From contig NZ_JACHGY010000001.1 in NCBI RefSeq assembly GCF_014207595.1, forward strand, positions 868,001-932,000: a DNA stretch of 64,000 nucleotides, in the 5' to 3' direction. Each line of letters starts with the position of its first letter. Within the stretch, counting starts at the first letter, position 1. Shown piece by piece: positions 26,317 to 54,874 of this stretch. This stretch comes from Algisphaera agarilytica (GTDB taxonomy: Bacteria; Planctomycetota; Phycisphaerae; Phycisphaerales; Phycisphaeraceae). Below the pieces are notes generated by a model. The model did not search any database. It worked only from the letters and a program-made list of their open reading frames with translations, and was not told the DNA's origin. A program made the position numbers and the translations under genes.

Positions 26317-26422
<106 letters not shown>

Positions 26423-26487
26423 GGATTCTAAATGAGCGTCGGGCCATCGCTTGCGTCCGCCCTACTCCCTACTCCCTACTCTCTGGC

Positions 26488-38398: not shown

Positions 38399-39940
38399 TT
38401 ATCCCTCGGTGACCTCATCGATGAACGTTTGGGCTTTGCCGAAGATGCGTTCACGCCGCTCGGAGTCCATCTTGTCGAGGGTGCCGAGCATCATGGACAG
38501 GCGCGGGTTGCGGGAGAAGAACGCGCGGTGCTTGTCAACGAATCGCCAGTACAGGCCATCCACCGTCTCGCACCATTCATCGGATTTCTTGTAGCAGTCC
38601 GACATCTTGACGAGGTAGTTGCTCCCACAGATGTAGGGCTTTGTAGCGAAGACGCCGCCGTCGGACATCAGCCCCATGCCGTAGACGTTCGGCCCCATGA
38701 CCCAGTCGCTGGAGTCGACGTACATCTCCATGAACCAGCGGTAGGCCTCGCCCGGCTCGACCTCGCAGAGATTCATCAGGTTCGCCAACACCATCAGCCG
38801 CTCGATGTGGTGCGTCCAGCCGAGGCGATGTGCCTTGTCGATCGCGTCGTCGAGCGGCGGCAGGCCCGTCGTCGCGTCGTACCAGCACGGCTTGAGCTTG
38901 CGGGCATGGTTCCAGAAATTCGTGGTCGACTGCTTGTCGTCGTAGTGCTGATACACCCCGCGGACGAACTCCCGCCAGCCGATCACCTGGCGGACGAAGC
39001 CTTCGAGTGAGTTCAGCGGCACCTCGCCGTCGGCATCTTCGGCATAGGCCAACGCCCGCTCCACCACCTCGCCCGGCGTGAGCAGCCCGAGGTTCAACAT
39101 CGGCGACAACACGCTGTGAAACAGCACATCATCACGCCGCGACAGCGCATCTTCGTACGGCCCAAACTCAACGAACCGCTCGTCCAAAAACTCACGCAGC
39201 CACGCCAAAGCCTGCCGCCGCGTCGTGGGCAACCAGAACTCGCCGTCGCCGGACAGCTCTCCCGGGTGGTCAGAAAAACGCTCGGCCACCAACCGCTTCA
39301 CCGCCTCGACGTGCTCGGTCGGCTTGGCCCAACTCGTCTCGGGGAACTCGACCTTCTTGGGCAACTTCTTTCGATTGTCCGCATCGAAGTTCCACTGCCC
39401 ACCCAGAGGCTGATTGTGTTCATCCACCAGGATGCCCAGGCGTCGGCGTTGACGTTCGTAGAACTTGGCCATGAACGGCCGCTTGCCCGAGCCGCCCAGA
39501 TAATCCGCAAACTCTTCGCGCGGCGTGACAAACATCGGGCTCTCAAGAAACTCCAGTTCCCAGCCCTGCTGCTTCGCGAACGCTTGGATCCGCTTTTCGA
39601 AAAAACGGTCTTCGATCTCGAACATCACCAGCCGCTCGATGCCCTTACCCTTAGCAAACCGCTCGAGCTTTTCTTCGTAGCTGGCTTGCTGAGCTTTATC
39701 GTTCTGAGCTTCGAACTTGTCGTAATGCACCTCGCAGCCGTTGCCACGCAGTTCGTCGGCATAGGAACGCATCGCCGCGAGAAACAGCACGATTTTTTGC
39801 TTGTGGTGCTTCACATACGTGCAGAGCCCGAGGTCCTCGGCCATGAAAAAACGTGCCCCGCGCATCGGCTTGTAGGCCGACCACGGGAACAGCTGATTGC
39901 CCAATACCACGACGAGGGTTTCCGATCCGTACGAAGCCAT
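38399..39940 (-). CDS. Photolyase-related / cryptochrome-family protein
   Basis: A 513-aa member of the prokaryotic photolyase-related (FeS-BCP/CryPro-like) family. An N-terminal alpha/beta antenna-domain fold (LVVVLGNQLFP...ARFFMAEDLGLCTYVKHHKQKIVLFL) is followed by a helical FAD domain: QVIGWREFVRGVY, KLKPCWYDATTGLPPLDDAI, LGWTHHIERLMVLANLMNL, NVYGMGLMSDGGVFATKPYI. The C-terminal PYICGSNYLVKMSDC...EWC...GLYW segment is where FeS-BCP enzymes bind a 4Fe-4S cluster; only some cysteines are in place, so the cluster may be absent or altered. It repairs UV-damaged DNA or senses blue light. First gene of the nine-gene run. Confidence 0.88.
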   Translation of the reverse strand: MASYGSETLVVVLGNQLFPWSAYKPMRGARFFMAEDLGLCTYVKHHKQKIVLFLAAMRSYADELRGNGCEVHYDKFEAQNDKAQQASYEEKLERFAKGKGIERLVMFEIEDRFFEKRIQAFAKQQGWELEFLESPMFVTPREEFADYLGGSGKRPFMAKFYERQRRRLGILVDEHNQPLGGQWNFDADNRKKLPKKVEFPETSWAKPTEHVEAVKRLVAERFSDHPGELSGDGEFWLPTTRRQALAWLREFLDERFVEFGPYEDALSRRDDVLFHSVLSPMLNLGLLTPGEVVERALAYAEDADGEVPLNSLEGFVRQVIGWREFVRGVYQHYDDKQSTTNFWNHARKLKPCWYDATTGLPPLDDAIDKAHRLGWTHHIERLMVLANLMNLCEVEPGEAYRWFMEMYVDSSDWVMGPNVYGMGLMSDGGVFATKPYICGSNYLVKMSDCYKKSDEWCETVDGLYWRFVDKHRAFFSRNPRLSMMLGTLDKMDSERRERIFGKAQTFIDEVTEG

Positions 39941-39972
39941 GCCGGAGCATAGGCCCAGCCGCCGCATCGGGC

Positions 39973-40001
39973 TTCGCCTACCCCACCCCGCCGGTTACAC
40001 T
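39973..40001 (+). promoter_or_regulatory. Probable promoter of the dihydropyrimidinase gene, leaderless
   Basis: TACACT (39996-40001) lies 6 nt before the ATG at 40008; a half-matching TTCGCC (39973-39978) sits at 17-nt spacing. No Shine-Dalgarno is present. The -10 box is identical to that of the superoxide dismutase promoter. Confidence 0.5.
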
Positions 40002-40007
40002 TGCTCT

Positions 40008-41456
40008 ATGCCACTACTCATCCAAAACGCGCGCCTCGTCACCGCAACCTCGGACCAGCCCGGCGACCTCTACGCCGAGGGCGACAAGATCACCACCCTC
40101 GCCGCGCCGGGCAAGCTCGACCCCGCCGACCTGCCCAAGAGCACCACGGTCATCGACGCGGCGGGCAAGCTGCTCATGCCCGGGTTTATTGATCCCCACG
40201 TGCACATCCACCTGCCGTTCATGGGCACCTTCGCCAAGGACGACCACCCCACCGCGAGCCGCGCCGCCCTCGTCGGCGGCACCACGACCTACCTCGAGAT
40301 GGTCTGTCCAAGCCGCGACGAACAACCGCTCGAAGCCTACGAGCTCTGGCGGGACAAGGCCGCCACCGGCGTGTGCGACTACGGCTTCCACATCGGCGTC
40401 ACCCGCTTCGACGACGACGTCGAGCAACAACTCCGCACCCTGGTCGCCGACCACGGGCAGCGCTCGTTCAAAGTCTTCCTCGCTTACAAGGGCGCGTTTG
40501 GCGTCACCGATGACGAGCTCTACAACGTCTGCAAGCTCGCCGCCGAGCTGGGCGTGATCGTCACCGCCCACTGCGAAAACGCCGAGCTGGTTGCCGCGAA
40601 CCAGGCCGCCCTGCTCGCCGCCGGCAAGGTGGGCCCCGAGTGGCACGAGCCGTCCCGGCCGGTGTCCGTCGAGACCGAAGGCGTCCACCACTTCTGCACC
40701 TTCCTCGAAATGACGGGCGCCACCGGCTACATCGTCCACACCTCCTGCCGCGACGCCGTCGAGATCGCGATGGATTTCCGGGCCCGCGGCGTCAACGTCG
40801 CCGTCGAAACCGTCATCCCGTACCTGACCCTCGACGACACCTACGCCCAGCGCAACGCTTCCACCGGCCACGACGCGTTCGAAGGCGCGAAGTACGTCAT
40901 GTCCCCGCCCATCCGCGGCGTCGAACACCAGCACTACCTCTGGCACGCTCTCGCCGCCGGCCACGTCCACACCCTCGGCACCGACCACGCGCCCTTCGAC
41001 TTCGCCACCCAGAAACACATAGGCTGCCCCGACGCATCCAAAGCCGTCGATGCCCAGTTCAACCCGCTCGGTGAACCCAGCGACTTCACCCGTATCCCCA
41101 ACGGCATCCCGTCCATCGAACACCGCGCCGACCTGCTGTACCAGGGTGTCGCCGACGGACGGATCACGCTGCAGCAGTTTGTTGCCCAGGTCAGCACCAA
41201 CGCCGCCGACCTCTTCGGCCTCCACACCAAGGGCCACCTCGCCCCCGGCTACGACGCCGACCTGGTGCTCTACGACCCCGACGCACCCAAAACAATCTCC
41301 GCCCAAACCCACCACATGGCCACCGACTACTCCGGCTTCGAGGGCGTGACCCACCCCGGCCACGCGACGCACGTGTTCTTGCGTGGTCGGGCCGTTGTAG
41401 AAGACGGAAAACTCGTCGACGAACTCTCGCCGGGCCAAGCCGCACCGCGCGGCTAA
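40008..41456 (+). CDS. hydA: Dihydropyrimidinase
   Basis: Hydrolyses dihydrouracil/dihydrothymine to N-carbamoyl-beta-amino acids, step two of reductive pyrimidine degradation. The protein has 482 aa. Metal sites of the amidohydrolase barrel are visible: DPHVHIHLPF (HxH), the carboxylated Lys in FLAYKGAFGV, TAHCENAELV, and the catalytic Asp in LGTDHAPFDF. NGIPSIEHRADLLY and the C-terminal DLVLYDPDAPKTIS strand are family-typical. The ATG at 40008 starts the conserved LLIQNARLVTA strand. Partner enzymes lie 13 kb downstream (53.7-60.7 kb) beyond an accessory region. Hydantoinase activity is also possible, but the partners favour pyrimidine use. Confidence 0.92.
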   Translation: MPLLIQNARLVTATSDQPGDLYAEGDKITTLAAPGKLDPADLPKSTTVIDAAGKLLMPGFIDPHVHIHLPFMGTFAKDDHPTASRAALVGGTTTYLEMVCPSRDEQPLEAYELWRDKAATGVCDYGFHIGVTRFDDDVEQQLRTLVADHGQRSFKVFLAYKGAFGVTDDELYNVCKLAAELGVIVTAHCENAELVAANQAALLAAGKVGPEWHEPSRPVSVETEGVHHFCTFLEMTGATGYIVHTSCRDAVEIAMDFRARGVNVAVETVIPYLTLDDTYAQRNASTGHDAFEGAKYVMSPPIRGVEHQHYLWHALAAGHVHTLGTDHAPFDFATQKHIGCPDASKAVDAQFNPLGEPSDFTRIPNGIPSIEHRADLLYQGVADGRITLQQFVAQVSTNAADLFGLHTKGHLAPGYDADLVLYDPDAPKTISAQTHHMATDYSGFEGVTHPGHATHVFLRGRAVVEDGKLVDELSPGQAAPRG

Positions 41457-41467
41457 AACCCCCGGGG

Positions 41468-42865
41468 ATGAATACACTCATGCGTATGAACCTCCGCCTG
41501 CTCCAACGATTGGCCCCCAGCCTGTTCGCCGCGTGTCTCGTCGTCGGCTGCAAAACCGCGCCGCCCGAACCTGAGCCCGAGCCGCTTCCCGAGCCCCCGC
41601 CGTCCGTACCGCTTGGCGAACTGCCCGAGACCGCGCCCGAGCCCCCACCACCCGACGTCGCCCTCGGCGGGCAAGACGCCCAGAGCAAGGACTACACCCC
41701 CGCCCAGATGCAGGCCACCGTCCGCAACTTCGCCGACCACTACCGCCAGTCCATGGCCTCGGCCCTCGACCGCATCATCATCGAATCCGACGACCCCGAA
41801 CTCATCCGCCGCGCCCACGCCGCCAAGATCAACGGCGTCACCGCGATGTACGACATCGCCGTCGACCCCATCCCCGCGTCGGCCATGCTCAACGGCCTCG
41901 TCCTCGTCTCCCTCCAGGCCAAGTTCCTCCGCGCCAACGGCGAACAGTACCTCGGCGAGTACTACCCCCTGCTCCAGATCACCGCCGACCGATTGCAAGA
42001 AGAAGCGTTCCGCATCGCCGCCCGCGCCATGACCGAGCAGCAACGCATCGACCTCCGCGCGACCATCGACCAATGGGCCGCAGCCAACCCCGACGAACGC
42101 AACTTCTGGTACATCCGCCTCGACGACCTGCCCGGCATCAGTGAGGACCCGAACTACCTCAAATCCTTCACCAGCCTCCCCGGCAGCTTCCTCAGGTTTG
42201 TTAACCCCCTCTCCGGCACCAACAAGTCCGTGACCGATGCCCAGATCTTGGCCGAGCGTATGAGTTGGCTCGCCCCCCGCCTCATGATCCTCGCCCAGTG
42301 GCGGGCCGAAGCCATCGTCTACAACAGCATCGCCAACACCCGGCTCAACGAAGTCGTCGACTTGGGCAACCGCATCACGACCGTGGCCGAAGAACTGCCC
42401 AACAACATCAGCGATCAGCGTGAAGCCCTGTTCGACGACCTCGAAGCGAACGAAGAACTCATGAACAACCTCCTCACACGCAGCGAGTCCATGACCAACG
42501 AAGCCACCGAGCTGGTGACCACGGTAAACAGCCTGGCCGAGCGCATCGAAAGCATCATGGCCGCGTCCCGGGAAGCCAGCGACAAGAAACACGAACGCTA
42601 CCCCGACCTCCCCCCGCCGCGCCCGTTCGACATCACCGAGTACACCGAAGCGCTCAACGAGCTCAACAAGGTCGTCACCGACGCCAACACGCTGCTGCTC
42701 AACGCCGACACCGCCGCCAGCCCCAAAGCCATCGACGACCGCCTCGCCGTCGTCGAAACCTCTGTCCGCAACCTCATCTTCACCGCCGCCGCCGCCCTGC
42801 TGGTCGTGGGCTTGCTGCTCATCCTCGCGGTGAAGTTCATCCCGCGGCGGCAATCCAGCAAGTGA
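41468..42865 (+). CDS. Putative lipoprotein with coiled coil and C-terminal membrane anchor, function unknown
   Basis: A 465-aa protein, 11 nt after hydA. The N-terminus is a lipoprotein-type signal (SLFAACLVVGC) followed by a Pro/Glu-rich spacer (PEPEPEPLPEPPP). A helical domain (residues about 85-270, FADHYRQSMASALDRIII... and RMSWLAPRLMILAQWRAEA) resembles no family I know. A coiled coil (about 280-350, VDLGNRITTVAEELPNNI...) and a C-terminal TM helix (LIFTAAAALLVVGLLLILAV) with a basic tail (PRRQSSK) close it. The ends suggest it spans the periplasm from lipid anchor to inner membrane. Possible role in envelope organisation. Confidence 0.65.
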   Translation: MNTLMRMNLRLLQRLAPSLFAACLVVGCKTAPPEPEPEPLPEPPPSVPLGELPETAPEPPPPDVALGGQDAQSKDYTPAQMQATVRNFADHYRQSMASALDRIIIESDDPELIRRAHAAKINGVTAMYDIAVDPIPASAMLNGLVLVSLQAKFLRANGEQYLGEYYPLLQITADRLQEEAFRIAARAMTEQQRIDLRATIDQWAAANPDERNFWYIRLDDLPGISEDPNYLKSFTSLPGSFLRFVNPLSGTNKSVTDAQILAERMSWLAPRLMILAQWRAEAIVYNSIANTRLNEVVDLGNRITTVAEELPNNISDQREALFDDLEANEELMNNLLTRSESMTNEATELVTTVNSLAERIESIMAASREASDKKHERYPDLPPPRPFDITEYTEALNELNKVVTDANTLLLNADTAASPKAIDDRLAVVETSVRNLIFTAAAALLVVGLLLILAVKFIPRRQSSK

Positions 42866-42870
42866 CCCAA

Positions 42871-42927
42871 CAACCCAATAGAACGATGAGGCAAGCCGCT
42901 AACGCTTGCATCCTTTCGCCTGGGTTG
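42871..42927 (+). terminator. Nested hairpin after the lipoprotein gene
   Basis: CAACCCA (42871-42877) pairs with TGGGTTG (42921-42927) around an inner GCAAGC/GCTTGC stem (42891-42909). No T-run follows, so termination is uncertain. The rest of the gap to 43042 is AT-richer and shows no clear feature. Confidence 0.35.
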
Positions 42928-43041
42928 ATCGATTTCGCTTTACTCTTCAGTTGCTGCCTGATTACACTTTTGTGACGAGAGAATCTTCTTTTCTACATCC
43001 CAACCAGGCAGGAAATGCCTTTCTCAACTAGGTCAATAAAC

Positions 43042-44052
43042 ATGAACAAGTTGCCACTTACCCTTGTTTGCCTCGCTCTGTGCGCCGCCTGCTTCGTGAC
43101 TCAGGCCGACGAGCCGGTGATCGTCACCGAATCCAACTACCCGCAGGTCGAGACCAACCGGCAGATGATCATCACCCAAAACAACGCCGGGGGCGTGAAC
43201 AAGTTCCTGCGCAAACGGTCCGTACCGAGCGTCGACAACCAACCCGTCATCCGCATGAACCGGGACACGCTCTACTCCATGGCGATCATCGACGCCTCCG
43301 AAGGCGCCACCGTCACCCTCCCCGACACCGGCGATCGATACATCTCCCTCATGTACCTCGACGAAAACCACCGCGTCTACGACATGGTGTATGAACCCGG
43401 CGAGCACGACATCCCCGCCCACACCGAACACATGTACGCCCTCGTCCGCATCGGCCTCCAGTCCGGCGATGACGCCGACCTCGCCGCCATCCACGAGCTA
43501 CAAGACCAGATCAAGCTCCACGCCAACAGCGCCACCCCCTTGGCCCCCATCGCGTTCGACCAAGCCTCATACGAAGAAACCCACCACGGCATCCTCACGA
43601 AGTTTGCTGAGTCCGGCCTCCTCGACACCGAGCGCATGTTCGGCACCGAAGACTACGTCGACCCCGACCGCTACCTCATGGGTACCGCCATCGGCTGGGG
43701 CGGCGCGACCTGGAAAGACAACATCTACCAGTTCTCCCAATTCTTTGAAGGCTTCGACGGCCGATCCACCACCTTCCAAGACCCCCAAAACACCGGCGGA
43801 TTCTGGTCCATCACCGTCTACAACAAAGACGGCTTCATGTTCAACGACATCGCCAACATCAACTCCGAAACCGCCACCCCCAACGACGACGGCACCTACA
43901 CCGTCCACTTCGGCTGCGAAGGAAAAGTCAACAACATCCCCATCCAAAACGACACCGGCAGCTGGAACGCCGCCATGCGCCACTACACCCCGTCTCAGGA
44001 TGTGATCGCCGGCAAGATCGTGCCGATGGAAACCATCGAATTGGTTGACTAG
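43042..44052 (+). CDS. Secreted DUF1254/DUF1214 protein
   Basis: A 336-aa exported protein with a signal peptide (MNKLPLTLVCLALCAACFVTQA). The DUF1254 part has NNAGGVNKFLRKRSVP...PVIRMNRDTLYSMAIIDAS and LPDTGDRYISLMYLDENH. The DUF1214 part follows with GTAIGWGGATWKDNIYQ, GGFWSITVYNKDGFMFND and a C-terminal HFGCEGKVNNIPIQND. The start at 43042 gives the signal peptide; an in-frame ATG at 43015 does not. The function of this common pair of domains is unknown. GC and codon use are like the host. Confidence 0.85.
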   Translation: MNKLPLTLVCLALCAACFVTQADEPVIVTESNYPQVETNRQMIITQNNAGGVNKFLRKRSVPSVDNQPVIRMNRDTLYSMAIIDASEGATVTLPDTGDRYISLMYLDENHRVYDMVYEPGEHDIPAHTEHMYALVRIGLQSGDDADLAAIHELQDQIKLHANSATPLAPIAFDQASYEETHHGILTKFAESGLLDTERMFGTEDYVDPDRYLMGTAIGWGGATWKDNIYQFSQFFEGFDGRSTTFQDPQNTGGFWSITVYNKDGFMFNDIANINSETATPNDDGTYTVHFGCEGKVNNIPIQNDTGSWNAAMRHYTPSQDVIAGKIVPMETIELVD

Positions 44053-44086
44053 GGCCTGACAATTCAAATCGCCGGAAAAGCTACCT

Positions 44087-45343
44087 TCACGCCGCGTCCA
44101 GCCGTTTGGGTTCGATTAGATCGCGCTGCCCACGCCCGTTGGCGCTACCAGTAAAGCCGGTTGCTTCGATCTGACGACACACGTCGTACTTCGGGATCGG
44201 CAGCAACAAGCCCGGATCGGTGGCGACGTGTTCGAGCCAACGGTCTTTGAGCTCTCGGGCAAACGCCTCCTGAGCGGGATCAAACTTCTTCTTCGCGGCT
44301 TTGACCGCCTTCTTGGCTTGCTTCAACTCCGCGTCCACCGCGGCCTCGGCTTGTTGCTCGGCTTCCTTCGCTGCTGGCGAGGGCATCGGGGCACCGAAGC
44401 GCAAGCCGCCACGTTTGACGGTGCGTTGAGTGGCTTCGCTCTTGGTGGCGAGCTTCAGGGCGGCGTCTTTCTTCTGCTTCACCCGCTGCTTCCGCTCGCG
44501 CTCCAGCCGCTGGACTTCGCTCTCGAGTAATAAGACTTCGTCTTTGGTCGCCTCACTTCCGGGGGCGGGACCGTTCGGCAGCACGATCGGCTTCGCGTCG
44601 CTCCAGTGCGTGCCGGGCGGGATGGGGAGGACGAGGCGATCCTCGCCGATCGCGCCGGCCCCGGTCTGGCTCGGGAACCAGTACGGCGTCCCCCCGGAAG
44701 CGGGATCACCCGTGTCGCCTTCCCGGATCCGCTTCTGCCAAAAGATGTGCATCCGCGGCCCCGCTTTGCGTTTCCGACCGCCTCCCGTCCGGAACGCCAG
44801 GGGCACGAAGCCCATCGCTTCCCAGAAGTGGTTCGCCTCCAGGTCCTGGGCACACCAACAACAGTACAGCCGACACCCGTAGGCGCTGGCCTCAAACTTC
44901 GCCTTGAGTAGATTCGCCGCCACCAGCGACCGCCGCCACTCGGGCACCACGTTCATCTGATAGATGATCCCCAGCTCGTCCCGCTTCAGGTAACGGTCCA
45001 CGGCGATTAAATAGCCCACCGGCGAGCCGGTGGAGTGATCGGTACCCAGTGAACAGTCCACCGTTGAATCCGCGTCCCCACTGTTTACTGAACACGGTGA
45101 ACTGTTCACTGTCCCCGTTGCAACCGCGACGAGGACGTTCCCCTTCGACAGGTGGCCCTTTATCGCCTTCTCCCACATGAACCCCACCGCTTTGGAGTTG
45201 GCTTTCTGCAACGCATCGATAAACGGGTAATCACTCGCCATCGCGGGACGGATCGTGATGTCTTGTTGGCTACGCGGCTGGGGTAATTCAACCGGCACAG
45301 GAACACCCGCGGGGTTCGTGTCGATTCGGATCACGTCGGACAT
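44087..45343 (-). CDS. GNAT acetyltransferase domain with long C-terminal coiled-coil extension
   Basis: A 418-aa protein. Residues about 25-190 form a GNAT-type acetyltransferase (ITIRPAMASDYPFIDALQKA; QMNVVPEWRRSLVAANLLKAKFEA acetyl-CoA loop; ANHFWEAMGFVPLAFRTGG). Inside it, between VLVAVATG and PVGYLIAVDRY, sits a Ser/Asp/Cys-rich insertion of about 28 residues encoded by an inverted-repeat DNA segment (see 45047). The rest holds a K/A/E-rich coiled coil (residues about 270-370) and a C-terminal segment (LLLPIPKYDVCRQIEATG) of no known family. The substrate is unknown. The start at 45343 is chosen from the acetyltransferase fold; upstream in-frame codons encode repeat-element DNA. Confidence 0.7.
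   Translation of the reverse strand: MSDVIRIDTNPAGVPVPVELPQPRSQQDITIRPAMASDYPFIDALQKANSKAVGFMWEKAIKGHLSKGNVLVAVATGTVNSSPCSVNSGDADSTVDCSLGTDHSTGSPVGYLIAVDRYLKRDELGIIYQMNVVPEWRRSLVAANLLKAKFEASAYGCRLYCCWCAQDLEANHFWEAMGFVPLAFRTGGGRKRKAGPRMHIFWQKRIREGDTGDPASGGTPYWFPSQTGAGAIGEDRLVLPIPPGTHWSDAKPIVLPNGPAPGSEATKDEVLLLESEVQRLERERKQRVKQKKDAALKLATKSEATQRTVKRGGLRFGAPMPSPAAKEAEQQAEAAVDAELKQAKKAVKAAKKKFDPAQEAFARELKDRWLEHVATDPGLLLPIPKYDVCRQIEATGFTGSANGRGQRDLIEPKRLDAA
45047..45111. repeat. Inverted-repeat insertion inside the GNAT gene
   Basis: CAGTGAACAGT (45047-45057) and ACTGTTCACTG (45101-45111) are perfect 11-bp inverted repeats, with further GTTTACTGAACACGGTGAAC wording between. The segment encodes a Ser/Asp-rich loop that interrupts a conserved acetyltransferase strand order but keeps the frame. 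Confidence 0.7.
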
Positions 45344-45389
45344 GGCTTGTACTCCCGGAATAGGTGAGGTTTGGAAGGTTGGAAGAGGT

Positions 45390-45582
45390 CTCACGCAGAG
45401 CCGCGAAGACGCGGAGGACAAGGCAGGGTTTATCCACCGATTAAGAGGATGAAAGGCAGGATTTCGCAGCCAACACACAAGGCATTGGGTTTTAAAAAAT
45501 CAGGTTCCAATCGTCTTAATCTGTGGACAACAACTTGCCTTATTGCCTTATCTGCTTAACGCCTCTGCGGCTTTGCGTGAGG
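45390..45582. repeat. Nested inverted-repeat element upstream of the GNAT gene
   Basis: An outer pair, CTCACGCAGAGCCGCGAAGA (from 45390) with its near-complement ending at 45582, encloses a second pair, TCCACCGATTAAGAGG (45433-45448) with TCGTCTTAATCTGTGGA (45510-45526). Both pairs are imperfect. It occupies the gap between two minus-strand genes (45344-45642), which holds no gene. Confidence 0.7.
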
Positions 45583-45642
45583 CTCAAATAATCCCGCCCC
45601 GATGTCTCGGACCGGGATTGTGGGGATGGGGGGTTCGATGTT

Positions 45643-46371
45643 TTACGCCGCGTCGGCTTGGTCGCTCGCTGAACTTCCGGAAGCGGAGCCGGGGTTGGCG
45701 GTGACGCCGAAGCCGAGGTGGGTGCTGATCGGGGCGCAGGCCGGGCCGGATTCGCCGCGGCGGTTGGACCAGAACGCGGTCAGCCAGACCTTGGTGGCGG
45801 GGGTGAACTCGTCGCCGAATTCGACCTCGGTGTCCAGCCGGGTGTCGTTGCCCTCGAACGACCAGTCGCGGATGTCGGCGGGGATGTCCTCGCCCACGTA
45901 GCTGAGCACGGTCGCGGTGGCGACGCCCTCGGGCTTCTTGCGTTTGCCGGTGGCGGCGTTGCGTAGCCGGAGCTTCACGGTCCGGCCCTCGACCGAGACG
46001 ATGTCGAGCTGCGGCGCGTCTTCGGGGGGCGGCACGGGGGTCGGGTCGGTGTCGGGTACGGTGATGCCCAGCGCCGCTCGCTTGTCGTTGTTGATCGCTG
46101 GCGAGGCCTGGATGATGCGCACCAGCTTCCGCGTCTCGGCGATCAGTTGGCGTTTGAGCGTGTTCTTGGCCTCGATGTTGGCCGGTGACCGGGTGGTCTG
46201 CTCGTTGGCGGTGTCGTACGCGGTGATGAACACCGCCCGCAGTGCGCCGTAGCCGGTGGCTTGGTCGGCCGTGAGGCCGTAGGTCGTGGGATTGGCTTCG
46301 ATCAGCGACGCAAAACCCTGGGTCCACGTGACCAGTTCCGACTCTCGGGCCGGCAGATATGGCTTGCTCAT
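45643..46371 (-). CDS. Conserved hypothetical protein, helical N-domain plus Fn3-like C-domain
   Basis: A 242-aa protein without signal peptide. The N-terminal half is helical (SELVTWTQGFASLIEANP, then EAKNTLKRQLIAETRKLVRIIQAS and NDKRAALGITVPD), followed by a Pro-rich hinge and a beta-rich C-terminal domain (VKLRLRNAATGKRKKPEGVATATVL and KVWLTAFWSNRRGESGPACAP) resembling fibronectin type III folds. Similar two-part proteins of unknown function are frequent in planctomycetes and verrucomicrobia. AAGGAG precedes the ATG. It may be surface- or complex-associated; nothing indicates a reaction. Confidence 0.65.
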   Translation of the reverse strand: MSKPYLPARESELVTWTQGFASLIEANPTTYGLTADQATGYGALRAVFITAYDTANEQTTRSPANIEAKNTLKRQLIAETRKLVRIIQASPAINNDKRAALGITVPDTDPTPVPPPEDAPQLDIVSVEGRTVKLRLRNAATGKRKKPEGVATATVLSYVGEDIPADIRDWSFEGNDTRLDTEVEFGDEFTPATKVWLTAFWSNRRGESGPACAPISTHLGFGVTANPGSASGSSASDQADAA

Positions 46372-46414
46372 GGCAAGTCTCCTTGCGGCGGTGCCGCGTT
46401 CGTGTTGTGAGCCC

Positions 46415-46577
46415 CGCCCGGAAAAGTAGAGGGGGCCCCGGAAATCAGTCGGTACCCGCCACGCCCCGGCCCCCGGAAACAGAATCCATGTCAGGCCCGG
46501 CCCCCGGAAGGGGTGAGCCCTGGAAATCTGCCCCGGAATTGCCCGGGAATCAGGCCGAGAAGTTCCCCGCGGAAAGT
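46415..46577. repeat. Cluster of CCCCGGAA-type motifs
   Basis: About eight degenerate copies of GCCCCGGAA(A/T) (TTTCCGGGGC on the minus strand) at 46416, 46435, 46468, 46501, 46517, 46530, 46541 and 46564, with irregular spacing of 11-35 nt, directly upstream of the gene starting at 46371. They could be binding sites or a degraded repeat. Confidence 0.6.
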
Positions 46578-46825
46578 GGAAGAAGGCTTCCGTTTCCGAG
46601 GGCGAGGTGTGGCTTCGCCGACAATGCCGCTATCGCCGTTCCGTGATGCGGGCTTTACCCGGCCGGCACAAACCCACACGTTATATTCGTCGGCCGCCCT
46701 GCCACCCACTTGGCTTGGGTTCCTACCGGACGCGACCCGGCCCGACTGTCCGGCCCCATCGCGTTTGAGACCCGATCGCGGGGTAAACCAGCGCGGCGAT
46801 TTTCGGCGTGATCGCAAAAAATTCG

Positions 46826-47077
46826 TCCGTTGCAGAGTTTGCAACGTTCGTGGCAAGGTTAGATTCGTTCGTTGCAGACTTCGGAGCGCGCGTTTCGAAC
46901 TTGTTTACGTTCGTTGCAGCCTTGGATTCGTGCGCTAAAGAGTTAGATTCGTCCGTTGCAGACTTCGCCACGTTCGTTCGGAGGTTCGAAACGTTCGTTG
47001 GAGCGTTGGTTTCGTTCGTTGGAAGGTTCGCCACGTACGGTGCAGAGTTGACCACGTTCGTTGCAAGTGTGGCTTAC
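46826..47077. repeat. Minisatellite: twelve 21-bp repeats encoding heptads
   Basis: Twelve contiguous 21-bp units with consensus close to TTCGTTGCAGA(C/G)TT.GA..CG, diverged but all exactly 21 bp, so no frameshift. In the plus frame that starts at GTG 46808 each unit encodes a heptad F-V-A-x-(F/L)-x-(T/S), with hydrophobic residues at coiled-coil a/d spacing; that frame runs to 47380 but its 3' part is antisense to an Mrr-like remnant. On the minus strand an ATG-started frame (47055-46723) reads Asn/Thr-rich SNLATNV-type heptads. I cannot decide whether either is translated. The 46372-46825 part upstream holds the CCCCGGAA cluster and no gene. Confidence 0.85.
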
Positions 47078-47122
47078 CCGCGAAAATGGCGCCAGTCGGG
47101 GCGTGCGACCTTCCGAATACAA

Positions 47123-47345
47123 GTATTAGTCCGCACTGGCCACGTCATAGATCTTTTTGAGGGAGAACCGGTGCCGCATCTCCGGGCTGAGGTCGGGATA
47201 ATGGTCGAGGAAGAGTTCGACGAAGCGGTTAGCGTCGATCAGAATCAGGTTTGCATCGTTGCGTTCGGTATGCCGTGCGTCGCAGCGAAGCCGCCGAGAC
47301 TGATGAAAACAGCCTTTTCGCCTGTATTAGGCGTACCGCGCGAAT
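47123..47345 (-). pseudogene. 3' remnant of an Mrr-like restriction endonuclease gene
   Basis: Read on the minus strand, the TAA at 47123 ends a peptide NDANLILIDANRFVELFL..., then HYPDLSPEMRH and LKKIYDVASAD. This matches the C-terminal wording of Mrr-catalytic-domain restriction enzymes. Upstream, a different frame reads TPNTGEKAVFISLGGFAAT, which is the preceding strand of the same family (GLFISTGGF-like). The two halves need a frameshift near 47265 to join. No catalytic D-(E/Q)xK core is found upstream, where the minisatellite is on the other side. It is therefore a broken, truncated remnant. Confidence 0.55.
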
Positions 47346-47420
47346 ATAAGTGTACGCCTCTACTTATCTATCCCCTGTAAACATTCACCCACTTCGTATA
47401 CGAATTCATAAATTAGATAA

Positions 47421-49154
47421 TTACGGCCTGAATGAACAGATATTCTCTGAGCCAAACAACCCCTCGAGTGTATGCAGTGCCTCTTGTGTAAGAACTTGAG
47501 TGAATAGCAAAGCGAGATTCTTCTTTGGCCGAGAGCACGCTACGTAAAATAGATTTCTGTTTCGCACGTAAGTATTTTCCTTGCTGGACGAATAACGATT
47601 GGGGAACCACTCTAGAAATTGCGTCCAGTTGTATTGATTCCAGCCTCGGCCGAGCACAACTAAAACATTATCGAACTGCGCCCCTTTCACACCGTGCTTT
47701 GTGGAAAATGGAGTATGATCATTTATGAAATCTGCCAAGGCAATCAGTTCTGAATACGGGATAGACCGAAGCTTTTCGATTTGACTGAGCGTCCGTGAAG
47801 CATCGATCTCTTCGCGTGTACCTTGCCCCAAAAGACGCTCGGTGCGGAGCACTGCATTAGGCAGGTGTGGTTTTCGCGTAGTTTTCAAGAGATCAATGAC
47901 TTCTCCAATCGTCGCTTCTGTGCGAATCTCTACTAAGCGACGGATATCTCTACTCCACTCACGCTTCTCCGCGAGGGTCGAGATATATCTAGCCTTTCGG
48001 CCAATAACTGAAAACATATCGCCAAATCTCCCGGCCGAGAACGCTGCACATACAGGTTCTACAGTGTCTACCAAAAACGCAATATGAGGATCCTCTTTCT
48101 TAAGAAGCGAGTCATTGTATTCAAACACCCCAAGAATCTGGCTATAGCACTGCTCTGCCGCAAGTACGTTATGTGTTAGCATCAAGATTTTTGTTTTATC
48201 CGGCGAAAAATCCCACCCGGTAGTAGTAAGCTTGCTACGCAGGCTCGACAGGTATCGGTGAACATCATCTGCGGGAAGATCACCACCCCAATGCCCTCCG
48301 GTTCGGCGCGTTCCAGCAAAACCATTGGAATGGAACACACTGGCTGACCCCACAGCTTGAGGATCACTAACCTGCTGTGGAAGCTCGGGCCGTATGCGGT
48401 TTAGGACGTCAACAATATCAGGTGCAGACCGAAAATTCGCCTCCTTACCAATCAATTGCAGATTGGGGTGTTCCAGGTGTCCCGCACCTGTTCGATAGAT
48501 TTTCTGCCAACTATCTCCGAAAAGACCAACAAGTGGACCGTCTCCAGTTTGAACAAATTTTTCAATTATACTTATAGCAAAATTGGCGTCTGTATCTTGA
48601 TACTCATCAATAAAGAGCACTGGAAACCTTGCCGCAAAAATCCTGCGGAATTTTGGTCGCTCCATTAGAGCTACCATTATTTTCAAGACATCATCATGGT
48701 GTAGAAGTATCTCCGTATCTGTCACGCGACGGTGCCCTAACTCATAACCGATTCGTCGGCCTCCTATTTCGCCAACCTCACTTAACTTTTCCGCCAACGG
48801 CGCAATATTAATGACTTCTGAGCGAACCACCGCTTGGAAACCCTTGCACAGTTCCCAGCAGAATGAGTGGATGGTTGATGCATACACGGCAGGATGGCCG
48901 TCTGTACGTTTTGTCACTTCGTCAGTCGCGACATTGGTATAGGTGATGCAAGCAACCCTTTGATGACGGCGTAGCAACTGAACCCCATCTACTTCAATGA
49001 TCAGCTGTAGTGCTTTGACCAAAGAGTAGGTTTTGCCTGCTCCGGCACCCGCTTCTAACAGGAAGCTTTTCTTCTCATGAATACAGTGAAACACCTCGTC
49101 AAGGGCACGTTGCGCTGCTACTTCGGCCGGGTTGGGTGCCAAAATATCAGACAT
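47421..49154 (-). CDS. UvrD/Rep-family helicase, GajB-like (Gabija-type defence)
   Basis: A 577-aa superfamily 1 helicase. Walker A is EAGAGAGKTYSL (about residue 35), motif II FIDEYQDTD (about 182-189), motif III GDSWQKIY, motif V HGVKGAQFDNVLVVL, motif VI YVACSRPKK. Length and order behind an OLD-family nuclease gene match GajB. The start at 49154 overlaps the nuclease stop by 8 nt (ATGTCTGA), so the two are translated together. In Gabija, GajB is thought to sense DNA ends or unwound DNA made by phage and to activate GajA. GC and codon use are far below host values, indicating transfer. Confidence 0.85.
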   Translation of the reverse strand: MSDILAPNPAEVAAQRALDEVFHCIHEKKSFLLEAGAGAGKTYSLVKALQLIIEVDGVQLLRRHQRVACITYTNVATDEVTKRTDGHPAVYASTIHSFCWELCKGFQAVVRSEVINIAPLAEKLSEVGEIGGRRIGYELGHRRVTDTEILLHHDDVLKIMVALMERPKFRRIFAARFPVLFIDEYQDTDANFAISIIEKFVQTGDGPLVGLFGDSWQKIYRTGAGHLEHPNLQLIGKEANFRSAPDIVDVLNRIRPELPQQVSDPQAVGSASVFHSNGFAGTRRTGGHWGGDLPADDVHRYLSSLRSKLTTTGWDFSPDKTKILMLTHNVLAAEQCYSQILGVFEYNDSLLKKEDPHIAFLVDTVEPVCAAFSAGRFGDMFSVIGRKARYISTLAEKREWSRDIRRLVEIRTEATIGEVIDLLKTTRKPHLPNAVLRTERLLGQGTREEIDASRTLSQIEKLRSIPYSELIALADFINDHTPFSTKHGVKGAQFDNVLVVLGRGWNQYNWTQFLEWFPNRYSSSKENTYVRNRNLFYVACSRPKKNLALLFTQVLTQEALHTLEGLFGSENICSFRP

Positions 49155-51177
49155 CCGTATTCTCCTCGCCAGATGGTTCACTGACGTGCGATGTTACAGC
49201 AACGTCAATCTCTCCGAGCCAGCGCAATCCTTCGTCGATGTACCGTGGAATTTCCCAATTCGTCTCATCAATAGCAAAGCGGAGGGCAAACCCACTTTTG
49301 TCGACAACTCCCGCCAGGTCCCATGCTTCGCTCTCTCTTTCCACCGCAGTTGCACCACAAAGAGAAAATATTTTCGGATTCGCCAAGATAAACGCATCTT
49401 CAAAGCTTCGCCCACATGCGTCGCCGTCAGTCTGCGGAACTTGATATGCGATACGACGAAAAAATAGTAATTTCTCGTCATCAGCCTTTGCTTGTATCTC
49501 CGCAAGCGTGGGAGCATTTTTGTTGTCTGGGTCAAACCATCTATTGAGTGACGCATTACTAGAGTGCGTTCCTTCAGACACTTTACACTTAGTTCTACCA
49601 TTGCCACCATCGATTGAATCTAAGTCGGTAACAACCAAGGTCCGAAGCTCAAGAAAATCGACGAGATTATAAAACCGATGAGCATAAGCCCCTCCAACTT
49701 CCATGATTGAAAGGTACTTCTTGCCGAGGCCACTTCCGTTCTTACGGTCAAATTTCTCAATCGCTTTTGGGAGAATCAACCGTTCTGTCGTCCCCTCGAC
49801 TATGATCGCACCATCGGCAAACAAAAGGTCACACCGAGTTAGAGTCAGATACTGATGCAGGAACTTGTGGTTCTCTGGCTCTTCCCCGCTCAATCCACTT
49901 CGCAGGTTTTTCGACTGCGTACAGAGAATTGCTGATCCTGGCTCCCGAGGCTTTGCCAGAAAATACCTCATTGCGTCAAATGACGCTTCATTGGCAATGT
50001 GTGACGAGTGGGTCGTTACAACGAATTGCACAGGCCAAGCATTGCCTTCATTGTAGTTCGACTCAAACATCGTTCGAATGTGATTAAGTTGCCGAATAAA
50101 GACCGTCTGCATCTGCGGGTGTAAATGGGCTTCTGGTTCTTCTATGAAAACGATATGAACACCGGATTCTGACTGGCGATTTGTAAACTCGCGAAAAATC
50201 TCGAACAACTTGAGCAGGATAAAGATCAGATTTCGTGAACCCAGACCGTTGTAGGATTCTGGCAGATTTATTCCATCAGGATCAGGGCCAGCGTAGGTCA
50301 CCGTGGTGTGATTGGAAAGCAACTGTTGAACATCGAGTTGCGTCTCGGTACGAAGCTTTGGGTCCGACAAACCCGGGTAACCGAAGAGCTCAAATGTTGG
50401 CGTCAACGCTACCAATTTTTCGTTAAAGTCGCCATCGATCTGGGTTTGGACCCCTTCGACTGCGGTTTTGAGAGCATCCGCTATGACTTGATCATCTGGC
50501 CCCGCCCCTATGGCAGAAGCAGACGTAAATAGGCGCTCAAATACTTTCCCTAAAACCGCTTTATCTTTGCTTGTGGCATCATCCACCGCTCTTTGTGCGT
50601 TAATGAATCCAAATTGAAGAACTGCCCGCAAACTTGCGTAGTCCAAGGTCTTTGTGTTGGTGGCATCGTTAGGATCTTGGGCTTCAATTCGTGCCTCGAA
50701 CAATTTTGGAATGCGTTCGCGAACACCACGAAAGAACGCTCGTTTGTCGTCAGCCAAGTCGGCAAACAGATCACCAATTTTTCCAGCTCCAATCGCGTAA
50801 GTGACGACAATTTTTGCATTCGAGCACTCATCGTCAAGGTCAACGATAAAATCAGAAAGAGTACCGAGATCTTCACCGTCCGTATATTCAATAATTAGGT
50901 CAATAGAAATAGCAGGTAAAGTATCTCGAATCAGGTCTTCTTCTTGATTGTCTGCGAATAGCTTTCGTGCTTCCCAAAAGTGTGTGTGCGTTCCGAGTGA
51001 GAAGTCTTCGAGTTGAAACTTGGGTGAATTTTCTGCCAAGAGCCGGCGAAAAAGCTCAGTCAGAGAAGTCTTGCCGCAGTTATTTCGCCCTACAATTAGT
51101 GTGGTGTCCTTCTCAAGAGCTATTTCAACATCCTCAAGTAGCCGGAAGTTTTGTACTGAGATATCTCTAACTTGCAT
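49147..51177 (-). CDS. OLD-family ATPase/TOPRIM nuclease, GajA-like (Gabija-type defence)
   Basis: A 676-aa class 2 OLD protein. The ABC-type ATPase part has Walker A GRNNCGKTS (30-38), signature-like YNGLGSRN (309-316), Walker B FIEEPEAHLHP (344-354) and the H-loop TTHSSH (388-393). The TOPRIM nuclease part has Glu461 (IVEGTTERL), the DxD at 518-520 (VVTDLDSID) and Glu593-Asp594 (SFEDAF). All catalytic elements look intact. It is about 100 residues longer than typical GajA, with an insertion between 100 and 280. With the helicase gene downstream it forms a Gabija-type anti-phage module; an ordinary OLD repair nuclease is the alternative. Strongly lower GC than the host. Confidence 0.85.
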   Translation of the reverse strand: MQVRDISVQNFRLLEDVEIALEKDTTLIVGRNNCGKTSLTELFRRLLAENSPKFQLEDFSLGTHTHFWEARKLFADNQEEDLIRDTLPAISIDLIIEYTDGEDLGTLSDFIVDLDDECSNAKIVVTYAIGAGKIGDLFADLADDKRAFFRGVRERIPKLFEARIEAQDPNDATNTKTLDYASLRAVLQFGFINAQRAVDDATSKDKAVLGKVFERLFTSASAIGAGPDDQVIADALKTAVEGVQTQIDGDFNEKLVALTPTFELFGYPGLSDPKLRTETQLDVQQLLSNHTTVTYAGPDPDGINLPESYNGLGSRNLIFILLKLFEIFREFTNRQSESGVHIVFIEEPEAHLHPQMQTVFIRQLNHIRTMFESNYNEGNAWPVQFVVTTHSSHIANEASFDAMRYFLAKPREPGSAILCTQSKNLRSGLSGEEPENHKFLHQYLTLTRCDLLFADGAIIVEGTTERLILPKAIEKFDRKNGSGLGKKYLSIMEVGGAYAHRFYNLVDFLELRTLVVTDLDSIDGGNGRTKCKVSEGTHSSNASLNRWFDPDNKNAPTLAEIQAKADDEKLLFFRRIAYQVPQTDGDACGRSFEDAFILANPKIFSLCGATAVERESEAWDLAGVVDKSGFALRFAIDETNWEIPRYIDEGLRWLGEIDVAVTSHVSEPSGEENTDV

Positions 51178-51601
51178 TTCACTAATACCCGGTTATACAG
51201 CTTGATGTTAGTAGTGACTGTTTAATTGTCCCTACGTATGGTTCTTAAGCGATTTGACCAGTTGCGTTTAGGCTTGATCGCACCTGTTCTTGCGCATGGT
51301 AGCTTTGGTATGCCCCCGTAAGCCTGATGTTGTGCAATACAGCATAGAAGAAAGGACCCGGACAACCATGCGTCGATACTCTCGGAGACGGCCACATCTG
51401 TCAAGGCTGGTATTTAGCCGCTGGTGGATATGGGGTGATTCCTACCTACCAAAACTCTCGGGAGCGAAAGTGGCTCCGGGGGCATAATGGGTTGTATTCA
51501 ACCGTACCAGATGACCGTTGGTTAAAGAACTGTCTCTCATGCCATGAGACTAGCGGGGTGCCACGTATCTTTGCATGCTTCGTGGTCAACCACCCCTATG
51601 T
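51178..51601. other. Intergenic stretch upstream of the Gabija-like operon, no gene seen
   Basis: 424 bp with no convincing coding frame. On the minus strand a TATAAC (51197-51192) lies 14 nt before the nuclease ATG and is a candidate -10 box. A CCACG...CGTGG hairpin wording occurs near 51559-51585. GC shifts from island-like to host-like along it, so one island edge probably lies here. Confidence 0.5.
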
Positions 51602-51781
51602 TCACCCGCTAACCAGATCATCAGATTGCTGGACGAAGTCGTCGCCGTCCCATTTGTCGTCGATGGTGATGCCTTCGCGTTCGGCTTGTTTGGCGGCGGC
51701 CTTGGCGGCGACGGCGGCGCGTTTGGCTTCCTGGGCTTTGGCCTGGCGTTCGACGAGGTCGGCGTGGGTGGTGAAGTAGGG
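51602..51781 (-). pseudogene. Second copy of the 3' end of preA
   Basis: Minus-strand frame reading YFTTHADLVERQAKAQ... to ...DDFVQQSDDLVSG and a TGA stop at 51602. It corresponds to the last about 58 codons of preA (53717-53893), with mostly synonymous differences and no frameshift. Nothing upstream of the Tyr codon resembles preA: the homology stops at 51781, where GGGAGTA heptamers begin. No start codon or promoter, so it is a fragment. Confidence 0.85.
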
Positions 51782-51825
51782 AGTAGGGAGTAGGGAAGAC
51801 AGCTTCCGGGGCGTAAGGCAAAGCA

Positions 51826-51843
51826 CCGTCAACCCATTGACGG
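51826..51843 (-). terminator. Short hairpin downstream of the NxxGxxAF protein gene
   Basis: CCGTCAA-CCCA-TTGACGG is a perfect 7-bp stem with a 4-nt loop, 48 nt past the stop on the minus strand. The following minus-strand bases (TGCTTT) are only weakly U-rich. Confidence 0.4.
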
Positions 51844-51890
51844 GGAGACGGCGGGTGCAGTGATGCCGGGGGTTATTTCCGGGGGGCGGG

Positions 51891-53627
51891 CTACTTCCGG
51901 CGGCGGGTGGCGAGGGTCAGCCCGCTCATGCCCAGCAACGCGAGGGTGGTGGGTTCGGGGATGGTCGCGACGAATATGCCGCCGCTTCCGTCGGTGAATG
52001 ACAGCGTGAAGGCCAACTGGCCTTCGTTGTTCAGCGCCGGCGTGCCGTTGTCGACGGTGGAGCCGAAGCTAATGAAGCTGATCGTGCGCTGTTCTTCGGT
52101 GATGCCGTCGGCCAGAAGAACCGTGAACAGGTCGCCGGCGCGGGCGATGAGCGATAGCTCGCCGTCGGCGTAGGCGAAGAGTCCGGTGCCGTTGGTCGAG
52201 TCCACCGCCCCGCCGCCGGTGCCATCGCGGAGGAAGCTGATAAACGCGGCTTGGCCGGCGTTGTTGAACTGGGGGGTGGCGAAGAAGTTGAGTTCGGCCC
52301 CGTCGGTCACGCCGGGGGCGGTGTCGCCCCGGCGGGCGATCACGCCCAACGCCGAGCCGGGCCCGTCGGTGGGGCCGAAAATCGCAAAGTTGTTGCTGTC
52401 GGGCCCGCTGAAACTGTCGTCCACCGGGGCACCGGTGCCGGTCCGGACGGAAGCGGTGAACAGCAGGTCGCCGTGGTCGTTGAGGCGTACGGCGTTGAAC
52501 GAATCGAACTCGGCGTCGTCCGCGGTGCCGGGGGCGGGGTCGTTGGCCCGGGCGACGAGCCCCAGCGACGAGCCGCTGCCGGACGTCGGCCCGAAGAGCG
52601 CGGAATTGTTGCTGTCGGGGCCCGAGTCCTCGACGGGGTCGCCGTTGCCGGTGCGGAGGAAGCCGACAAACGCGGTGTCCCCGGCGTTGTTGAGGACGGG
52701 CGCCCCGCCGAAGCCGCTGAACTCGGCGCCGTCCGATACGCCCGGGGCGGGGGAGTCTTCTCGGCCCAAAAGGCCCAGCCCCGACCCGCTCGGGCCGAAG
52801 ACGGCGCTGTTGTTGTCGTCGTCCACCACGGTGCCCGTGCCGGTCTGCAGGGAGTGGGCGAAGGCGACCTCGCCCTGGTTGTTGATCGTGTTCCGGTTGC
52901 TGAACCCCAGGTAGGCGGCGCCGTCGGCGACGCCGGGCGCGGGGTCGCCACGTCGGGCGATCACGCCGAGGGCCGAGCCCGGCCCGGCCGTGGGGCCGAG
53001 TAGTGCTTGGTCGTTCGCAGAGGTCACGGCGGCGCCGGTGCCGGTCGCCAGCTCGACCTGCAGCAAGAAGTCCCCGGCAGCGCTGAAGTCGATCTCATCG
53101 AAATCGGCGAAGACCGCGTTATCCGCCGTGCCGGGGGCCGGCGCCCCTTCCCGGGCGATCAGCCCCAACCCCCCGTTGGGGCCGAAAATCGCCCCGTCGT
53201 TCACGCCGGTGACGGCGGGACCCGCGCCGGTGGCCAACACCGCCTCGAAGGCCACCTCGCCGCTGTCGCTCAGATAGGCGGTGTTTTGAAAGCTGGAATA
53301 CACCGCACCATCCGCCACGCCGGGCGCGACGTCGCCCTTGCGCGCCACGATCTCCAGGTCCGACGTCAAGGTTGGCGCGAATAGTGCGGTGCTGTTGTCG
53401 GACGTGACCGGTGCCCCCGTCCCCGTTTCTAAGAAGCTGACAAAGGCTACTTGGCCCGCATCGTTGAGGACCACGTTCGAGAATCCGCCGAAGATCGCTC
53501 CGTCGACGGCCCCGGGCGCGGCTTCGCCGGACAGGGCGATCTGGCTGATGTCAGACTGGGCGACAGCCGATCCGGCGACGGCAATGGGGATGAGCGAGGT
53601 GGTCAGTAGACGGCAGGTGTTACGCAT
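51891..53627 (-). CDS. Exported NxxGxxAF tandem-repeat protein with PEP-CTERM anchor
   Basis: A 578-aa exported protein. The signal peptide is MRNTCRLLTTSLIPIAVAGSAVAQ. The body has about eight repeats of roughly 65 residues, each carrying a version of NxxGxxAF (NDAGQVAF, SDSGEVAF, NNQGEVAF, NNAGDTAF, NNAGQAAF, NNEGQLAF; two degenerate), plus a recurring ARxGDxAPGVADGA segment. The C-terminus is a PEP-CTERM sorting signal: IPEPTTLALLG, a short hydrophobic stretch and RRRK. In planctomycetes such proteins are sorted to the cell surface, probably after processing by an exosortase. High GC and host-like codon use. Located between preA and its partial duplicate. Confidence 0.88.
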   Translation of the reverse strand: MRNTCRLLTTSLIPIAVAGSAVAQSDISQIALSGEAAPGAVDGAIFGGFSNVVLNDAGQVAFVSFLETGTGAPVTSDNSTALFAPTLTSDLEIVARKGDVAPGVADGAVYSSFQNTAYLSDSGEVAFEAVLATGAGPAVTGVNDGAIFGPNGGLGLIAREGAPAPGTADNAVFADFDEIDFSAAGDFLLQVELATGTGAAVTSANDQALLGPTAGPGSALGVIARRGDPAPGVADGAAYLGFSNRNTINNQGEVAFAHSLQTGTGTVVDDDNNSAVFGPSGSGLGLLGREDSPAPGVSDGAEFSGFGGAPVLNNAGDTAFVGFLRTGNGDPVEDSGPDSNNSALFGPTSGSGSSLGLVARANDPAPGTADDAEFDSFNAVRLNDHGDLLFTASVRTGTGAPVDDSFSGPDSNNFAIFGPTDGPGSALGVIARRGDTAPGVTDGAELNFFATPQFNNAGQAAFISFLRDGTGGGAVDSTNGTGLFAYADGELSLIARAGDLFTVLLADGITEEQRTISFISFGSTVDNGTPALNNEGQLAFTLSFTDGSGGIFVATIPEPTTLALLGMSGLTLATRRRK

Positions 53628-53716
53628 TATTCTCTCCTCCTAGGAACTCGGATTATCCCGTAAACAAGGGGAAGATCAAGGGTGAATTCGCCGCGACGCC
53701 ATGAGCCACGGCTCGC

Positions 53717-54874
53717 TTAGCCGCTGACCAGATCATCCGACTGTTGGACGAAGTCGTCTCCGTCCCACTTGTCGTCGACGGTGATGCCTTCGCGTTCCGC
53801 TTGCTTGGCGGCGGCTTTGGCGGCGACGGCGGCGCGTTTTTCGGCTTGAGCCTTGGCTTGGCGGGCGACGAGGTCGGCGTGGGTGGTGAAGTAGGGCAGG
53901 GCGTGGCCCTTGAAGTCGTCGATGGTTTCGAAGCCGTGGGTTTCCATGAAGGCGAGGAGGCCTTCGATCATGGGCTTGACCATCTTGTAGCCCATCTTCA
54001 TGACGCCGGTGCAGACCTGGACGGTGTCGGCGCCGAGGAGGATGAACTGGGCGGCGTCTTCGCCGGTCTCGACGCCGCCGATGCCGGAGATGGTGCGGGA
54101 GCCTTCGAACTCTTCGCGGATGAGGGTGGCGATCTCCATGACCATGCGGAGGGCGATGGGGCGGACGGCGACGGAGGAGTAGCCGCCGGGGGTGGTGTAG
54201 CCCTCGACGGTGGGCATGGGGCGGAGGGTTTTGAGGTCGACGCCGATGACCGAGCGGATGGTGTTGATGGCGGAGATGCCGTGGGCCCCGGCGCGGAGGG
54301 CGGCGCGGGTGGGGTCTTCGATGTGGGTGACGTTGGGGGTCATCTTGGCCCAGACGGGGGTCTTGGCGGCGGCCATGACCCAGCCGGTGACCTCTTCGAG
54401 GATCTCGGGGTCTTCGCCCATGGCGGCGCCCATCTTGCGCTCGGGCAGGCCGTGGGGGCAGGAGAAGTTGAGCTCGAGGCCGTCGACGCCCGCGGCTTCG
54501 CAGCGCTCGACGATCTCGCACCACGCGTCCTTGTTGTACTCCTCCATGATCGAGGCGATGAGGACGTGGTCGGGGTACTGGTCCTTGATGGCTTTGAACT
54601 CGTCGAGCCATTGGTCGAAGGGCGTGGTGGAGATGAGCTCGATGTTCTCCCAGCCGAAGACTTCTTTCTTGTTGACGCCGGTGAGCTTGCCGTAGCGGGG
54701 GGCAACGTTGATGACCTTGGAGGCGTCGAGGCTGACAGTCTTGGCGATCATGCCGCCCCAGCCTTCGTCGAAGGCTTTGCAGATGACTTTCTTGTTGGTG
54801 CCGGGCGGGCCGGAGCCGATGACGAAGGGGTTGGGGAACTTGATGCCGTCGACGGTGGTTTCGAGGGTGGGCAT
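53717..54874 (-). CDS. preA: Dihydropyrimidine dehydrogenase subunit PreA, without ferredoxin domain
   Basis: Reduces uracil and thymine to the dihydro forms, step one of reductive pyrimidine degradation. The protein has 385 aa and consists of the FMN-binding barrel: FVIGSGPPGTNKKVICKAFDEG, GLELNFSCPHGLPERKMG, WAKMTPNVTHIEDPTRAAL, GGVETGEDAAQFILLGAD and VQVCTGVMKMGYKM. E. coli PreA ends in two 4Fe-4S motifs; none is present here. Instead the tail is a charged Ala/Lys/Glu helix ending DDFVQQSDDLVSG. Its NADH-binding partner PreT is not in the window. Last gene of an operon (nitrilase, permease, aminotransferase, preA). Its 3' end is duplicated at 51602. Confidence 0.88.
   Translation of the reverse strand: MPTLETTVDGIKFPNPFVIGSGPPGTNKKVICKAFDEGWGGMIAKTVSLDASKVINVAPRYGKLTGVNKKEVFGWENIELISTTPFDQWLDEFKAIKDQYPDHVLIASIMEEYNKDAWCEIVERCEAAGVDGLELNFSCPHGLPERKMGAAMGEDPEILEEVTGWVMAAAKTPVWAKMTPNVTHIEDPTRAALRAGAHGISAINTIRSVIGVDLKTLRPMPTVEGYTTPGGYSSVAVRPIALRMVMEIATLIREEFEGSRTISGIGGVETGEDAAQFILLGADTVQVCTGVMKMGYKMVKPMIEGLLAFMETHGFETIDDFKGHALPYFTTHADLVARQAKAQAEKRAAVAAKAAAKQAEREGITVDDKWDGDDFVQQSDDLVSG

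Follow-up and report, generated by a model that had tools for sequence, protein, structure and literature searches.

A diverged second 3' end of preA at the edge of a Gabija locus in Algisphaera agarilytica, a possible scar of recombination with a close relative

Orphan gene ends lying downstream of an intact gene are known from more than one kind of recombination. In homology-facilitated illegitimate recombination (HFIR), one end of the exchange is homologous and the other is joined at a microhomology of mostly 3-10 bp (PMC3240628). HFIR is known from Acinetobacter, pneumococcus and Pseudomonas stutzeri and is rare in E. coli, and two papers stress its rarity in general (PMC3240628, PMC5361080). 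The second of these proposes HFIR for effector loci of Vibrio, where the 3' end of the older gene may remain downstream of the new one (PMC5361080). A different route to a duplicated gene end is integration at a target gene, as with e14 at icd, which leaves a 163-bp icd remnant (PMC6379469); the identity blocks at such sites reach about 250 bp (PMC10111431).

Here we describe a duplicated gene end in Algisphaera agarilytica that resembles both kinds of case in some respects. The window, meaning the whole stretch of DNA analysed, comprises 64,000 nt (contig NZ_JACHGY010000001.1, positions 868,001-932,000, forward strand), and the features needed below, in window coordinates, are as follows.

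39897..41456, plus strand: hydA (dihydropyrimidinase), convergent with preA, which it adjoins in relatives; TIGR02033 over cut-off
41457..53716, no strand: 12.3-kb insert between hydA and preA, missing at this place in eight relatives; distances in the relatives taken from match ends
47421..49181, minus strand: GajB of a Gabija system, G+C 48%; PADLOC PDLC00113, E 3e-247
49147..51177, minus strand: GajA of the same system, G+C 47%; PADLOC PDLC00063, E 2.2e-264
51602..51781, minus strand: 3' end of a second preA without the rest of the gene (59 codons and a TGA stop), in frame; ungapped alignment, 158/180 nt identical
51775..51796, no strand: heptamer array (AGTAGGG)3.1 at the fragment's 5' edge; the last unit also belongs to preA
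51891..53627, minus strand: NxxGxxAF-repeat (DUF7453) PEP-CTERM gene between the copies; Pfam PF24251 and PF07589, NCBIfam TIGR05002 and TIGR02595
53717..54874, minus strand: intact preA (NAD-dependent dihydropyrimidine dehydrogenase subunit PreA); NF006183 over cut-off

As in HFIR, one end lies at a short microhomology (7 nt here) and diverged DNA is kept at a homologous locus; unlike the described cases, neither the homologous anchor nor lost recipient DNA is visible here, and natural transformation in these bacteria is presumed. The arrangement of an intact gene with an older 3' end downstream is that left by effector displacement in the type VI modules of Vibrio cholerae and in Rhs orphan 3' regions (PMC5361080), although here the gene is metabolic, the protein end is nearly identical and the exchange has no evident advantage. 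With e14 at icd the locus has in common a duplicated end of similar size in the same orientation, few protein changes and a segment between the copies; it differs in having no recognised recombinase, only 2.1 kb with one PEP-CTERM gene, and no recurrence at the preA loci compared.

The fragment (51602-51781) aligns with preA (53717-53896) without a gap over 180 nt, both on the minus strand and thus in the same orientation, and the homology starts at CCCTACT and ends with the stop codon (TGA in the fragment, TAA in preA). The original prediction of a duplicated preA 3' end with its frame kept and mostly synonymous differences holds, as does the placing of an NxxGxxAF PEP-CTERM gene between the copies; its extent of about 58 codons at 51602-51778 falls slightly short, since the homology starts at 51781 and takes in 59 codons and the stop. 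Chance similarity was rejected (176 nt at 89%, E 3.3e-60). In a self-comparison of the window the pair is the strongest repeat, the others lying inside the PEP-CTERM gene or in a short tandem array. A DNA search of the organism's own genome, in which 40 of 158 first-look candidates were scored, returned the fragment and the preA end and, apart from these, only brief heptamer matches, and a protein search returned these two alone (12 of 12 candidates scored). A still functional short gene was also considered for the fragment and rejected, the 76-aa open reading frame at 51602-51832 starting with TTG upstream of the homology and having no Pfam match.

The two tails differ at 22 of 180 nt (88% identity), and 17 of these differences fall at third codon positions, with four more at second positions and one at a first; an excess of at least 17 in 22 has a binomial chance of 3e-5 against an expectation of one third, taking sites as independent. 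In the proteins only four residues differ (E/A, an EA/AE swap and I/V), and dN is 0.041, dS 0.54 and dN/dS about 0.08 (Nei-Gojobori, NG86). Both copies were therefore under selection as genes through most of their divergence, and the fragment, whose sequence evolved within an intact gene, is best described as a young scar of old divergence. Differences outside third positions number only five, so there is scant room for decay after truncation: if all five arose after truncation (120 sites), that phase should have added only two to three changes at third positions, and about 14 would probably predate it. Recent duplication within the genome followed by decay was rejected on the third-position bias and the NG86 ratio.

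To judge from these values, the tails appear to be about as distant as the genes of close species, and selected for most of that divergence. When either tail is compared with the two next-genus genomes, dN ranges over 0.15-0.21 and dS over 0.79-1.31; for the window's lpd and that of one same-genus genome, dN is 0.11 and dS 0.60; lpd dS to other genera is 0.42-0.51, below the same-genus value, so the dS scale is rough and the term close relative leans mainly on dN across 59 codons. At the sites where the copies differ, the two next-genus genomes side with the one copy nearly as often as with the other (in the codon alignment, 7 to 8 and 8 to 9 sites), as expected of two gene lineages; as a means of telling which tail is native this comparison gave no decision. 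In gapped BLAST the fragment is slightly nearer to one of the relatives (G042), at 79.0 vs 76.6%. The first 31 nt of the alignment, which are identical, were considered as a crossover core and given no weight, because every one of the ten codons there ends in C, and the preA of a verrucomicrobium (L122) matches this part of the fragment at 97% over 38 nt. Among 400 genomes of the order the fragment is found twice in its own genome (E<=1e-12, two candidates scored per genome) and otherwise in two genomes, both from one other genus, with a single match in each (79% and 75%); the same search found no donor allele, the nearest other tail being that at 79%, and plasmid and phage collections yielded no donor either.

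At its 5' edge the fragment runs into three heptamer units, (CCCTACT)3, and the last unit as read on the minus strand is itself part of preA, which makes a junction microhomology of 7 nt with the preceding base mismatched. This lies within the 3-10 bp range of HFIR microhomologies, the mismatch falling just outside. The own genome has four distinct heptamer arrays of at least 20 nt, this one included, and seven array matches vs one for a control with the pattern reversed; the array 20-mer is matched in 6 of 51 family genomes, and in neither of the two same-genus drafts. Arrays of the types (TAGGGAG)n and (TAGGCAG)n are dispersed, at 51775-51796, 26338-26418 and 26461-26485 of the window and at G000:C1:195946, 844836 and 2612017, and in one genome (G066) all 18 overlapping array matches lie on the plus strand (control there 2). 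They are reminiscent of the short tandemly repeated sequences of cyanobacteria.

On the other side of the fragment lies the defence island that had been predicted just past it, identified here through PADLOC as Gabija. In 100-bp steps G+C falls from 63% in the fragment to 49.5% in the next 424 bp and to 47-48% across GajA and GajB as far as about 47.3 kb. Within that resolution, this low-G+C block (47300-51601) has its right edge at the fragment's stop codon. A comparison of 46301-47440 with 51151-51640, on the two sides of the block, turned up no exact direct repeat of more than 9 nt. A degenerate 21-bp tandem repeat (46801-47070, G+C about 51%), with open frames on both strands, lies between a gene for a 242-aa protein and GajB.

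The locus as a whole was compared within the family (51 genomes, own included), in which preA, sought at E<=1e-60, a threshold that would hide a short fragment, is present in 10 genomes including the own, with one match in each. In 12 chosen genomes hydA was sought and found in 10, being missing in both same-genus genomes. Eight relatives have hydA and preA separated by 18-229 bp vs 12.3 kb between the stops here (measured between match ends), in convergent orientation as in the window (G056, G010, G050, G051, G052) or head to tail (G015, G042, G033); the two genes are on different contigs in G053 and far apart in G005. The neighbours of preA are an aminotransferase, a permease and an amidohydrolase, whose order is kept in the relatives compared, the permease not being found at the G056 locus. 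In neither of the same-genus drafts (G001 and G002, 78% and 91% complete) was a match to preA or hydA found, and the pyrimidine-breakdown cluster may therefore be patchy within the genus. Relatives lacking the segment between the copies had been proposed as a check: eight do lack it, but they lack the entire 12.3 kb, so the 2.1-kb piece is not singled out.

The contents of the insert are also without counterparts at such loci. Among 91 loci longer than 5 kb (relatives' neighbour loci, named preA loci and one own locus), the DUF1254 protein, the 242-aa protein, GajA, GajB and the PEP-CTERM protein have no match outside the own locus at E<=1e-6, nor do the lipoprotein-like and acetyltransferase-like proteins at E<=1e-4. 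The lipoprotein-like gene beside hydA (41468-42865) encodes a proline-rich N-terminal part and has no Pfam family over cut-off; its relatives, at 40%, are found in both same-genus genomes at other loci, with no hydA or preA match within the 20 kb taken around each. Given the unmatched insert proteins and the lipoprotein-like relatives elsewhere in the genus, the insert looks composite. Matches to the PEP-CTERM protein occur in 25 of the 51 family genomes, the best at 56% over part of its length, and its gene is a bystander or a passenger. A test for recurrence took 93 loci representing 87 distinct genes, own included, of which 78 have 2.5 kb or more downstream, and matched the final 300 nt of every preA to the locus around it. 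A second preA end occurs in the window and at none of the other 86 distinct loci (77 of them with 2.5 kb or more downstream). A literature search in which full texts were not examined returned nothing on point for preA duplication, planctomycete competence, islands replacing gene ends or planctomycete heptamer repeats.

With confidence slightly better than even, we read the fragment as the scar of recombination with the preA locus of a close relative, one end of which was illegitimate and lay at the heptamer. The second preA allele would once have been an intact gene, carried most likely by a close relative of the species. The relative's incoming DNA would have been anchored by homology in the region of preA and the aminotransferase, while its other end would have been joined illegitimately at the 7-nt CCCTACT match between heptamer array and preA; the exchange would thus have replaced one preA upstream of the junction and stranded its last 59 codons, with the PEP-CTERM gene either arriving in the exchange or already present and Gabija lying on the other side. 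A single HFIR event of this kind would give an intact preA, a stranded tail, a junction at a 7-nt repeat and no recombinase. The same product could be reached in two steps, through a duplication or merodiploid and then a deletion at the same junction. We infer the horizontal source and the single event; either copy may be the resident one, and the incoming DNA may or may not have brought the Gabija block. The anchor crossover is not visible at the locus, and neither same-genus genome has a match to preA or hydA, so that any direction or source is conjectural. As a counterpoint, preA's own CCCTACT could have been the seed from which the array expanded once the break had occurred.

A serious rival, though to our judgement an unlikely one, is that the lineage once had two functional preA genes, the downstream one losing its body through a deletion that ran between the heptamer array and its CCCTACT. 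The selected divergence, orientation, frame and microhomology junction are explained equally well by this loss of a paralogue, which needs no transfer. It would require a paralogue private to the species group, however, given the single preA match in each of the 10 preA-bearing family genomes and the lack of a second preA end near any of the other distinct preA loci; tandem full-length preA genes, which had been named as the sign of simple gene loss, were found in none of the 10. With one preA in each preA-bearing family genome, the fragment could equally well stem from the allele of a relative or from a paralogue. The idea that a second preA was lost and left its 3' end is thus borne out as to a diverged, once intact preA (17 of 22 differences, dN/dS about 0.08), while a relative with two preA genes was not seen. 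The idea that an element regenerated the gene end, the other half of the original prediction, fares less well, and we regard it as improbable: a site-specific recombinase would have integrated a circular DNA whose substitute preA end restored the gene, the old end being left as remnant. The duplicated target-gene end flanking the segment (180 nt, 88% identical, preA intact) and a geometry and size close to those of e14 and icd fit such an element, and relatives lack the segment, though along with the rest of the 12.3 kb; but no site-specific recombinase was found in Pfam scans of the main and selected minor open reading frames of the insert, the sole gene between the copies is the PEP-CTERM gene, nothing recurs at the other preA loci compared, and 51180-53896 has no match in phage and plasmid collections. 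Serine recombinases and transposases were sought through these Pfam scans, some small or antisense frames lying outside their coverage, and the five matches to tyrosine integrase (PF00589) in the genome are all outside the window.

A Campbell-type single homologous crossover of a circular DNA with a preA end and the PEP-CTERM gene would yield the same product, namely an intact hybrid preA, the circle, and then a truncated preA end running into what had originally lain downstream, and it would account for the lack of a recognised recombinase without a dedicated one; a homology of only about 180 bp that starts exactly at the heptamer array, and the absence of a plasmid match, make it quite implausible to us. 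We give marginally less credence still to the idea that the preA 3' end is a landing site for integrase-less defence and surface-protein cassettes, perhaps moved by a recombinase from elsewhere and added in turn with their own substitute preA ends, of which the Gabija block and the PEP-CTERM segment would be two. An assembly artefact, in which the locus of one strain was merged with that of another at the repeat, seems hardly credible: the junction does lie in a repeat and the copies differ as strains or species do, but the locus sits inside a 4.1-Mb contig of a six-contig genome that is 99.75% complete with 1.07% contamination.

Recombination with a close relative would place the fragment, as a further instance, among recombination scars of a known kind, the kind being explained though not every step. 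Taken alone it is a single locus and changes little, but the combination of a young scar and an old divergence is a signature simple enough to be sought genome-wide. If the reading is true, the fragment records exchange between species of Phycisphaerae-like planctomycetes beside a Gabija defence locus, which suggests that ordinary recombination at repeats, rather than integrases, can make such islands grow.
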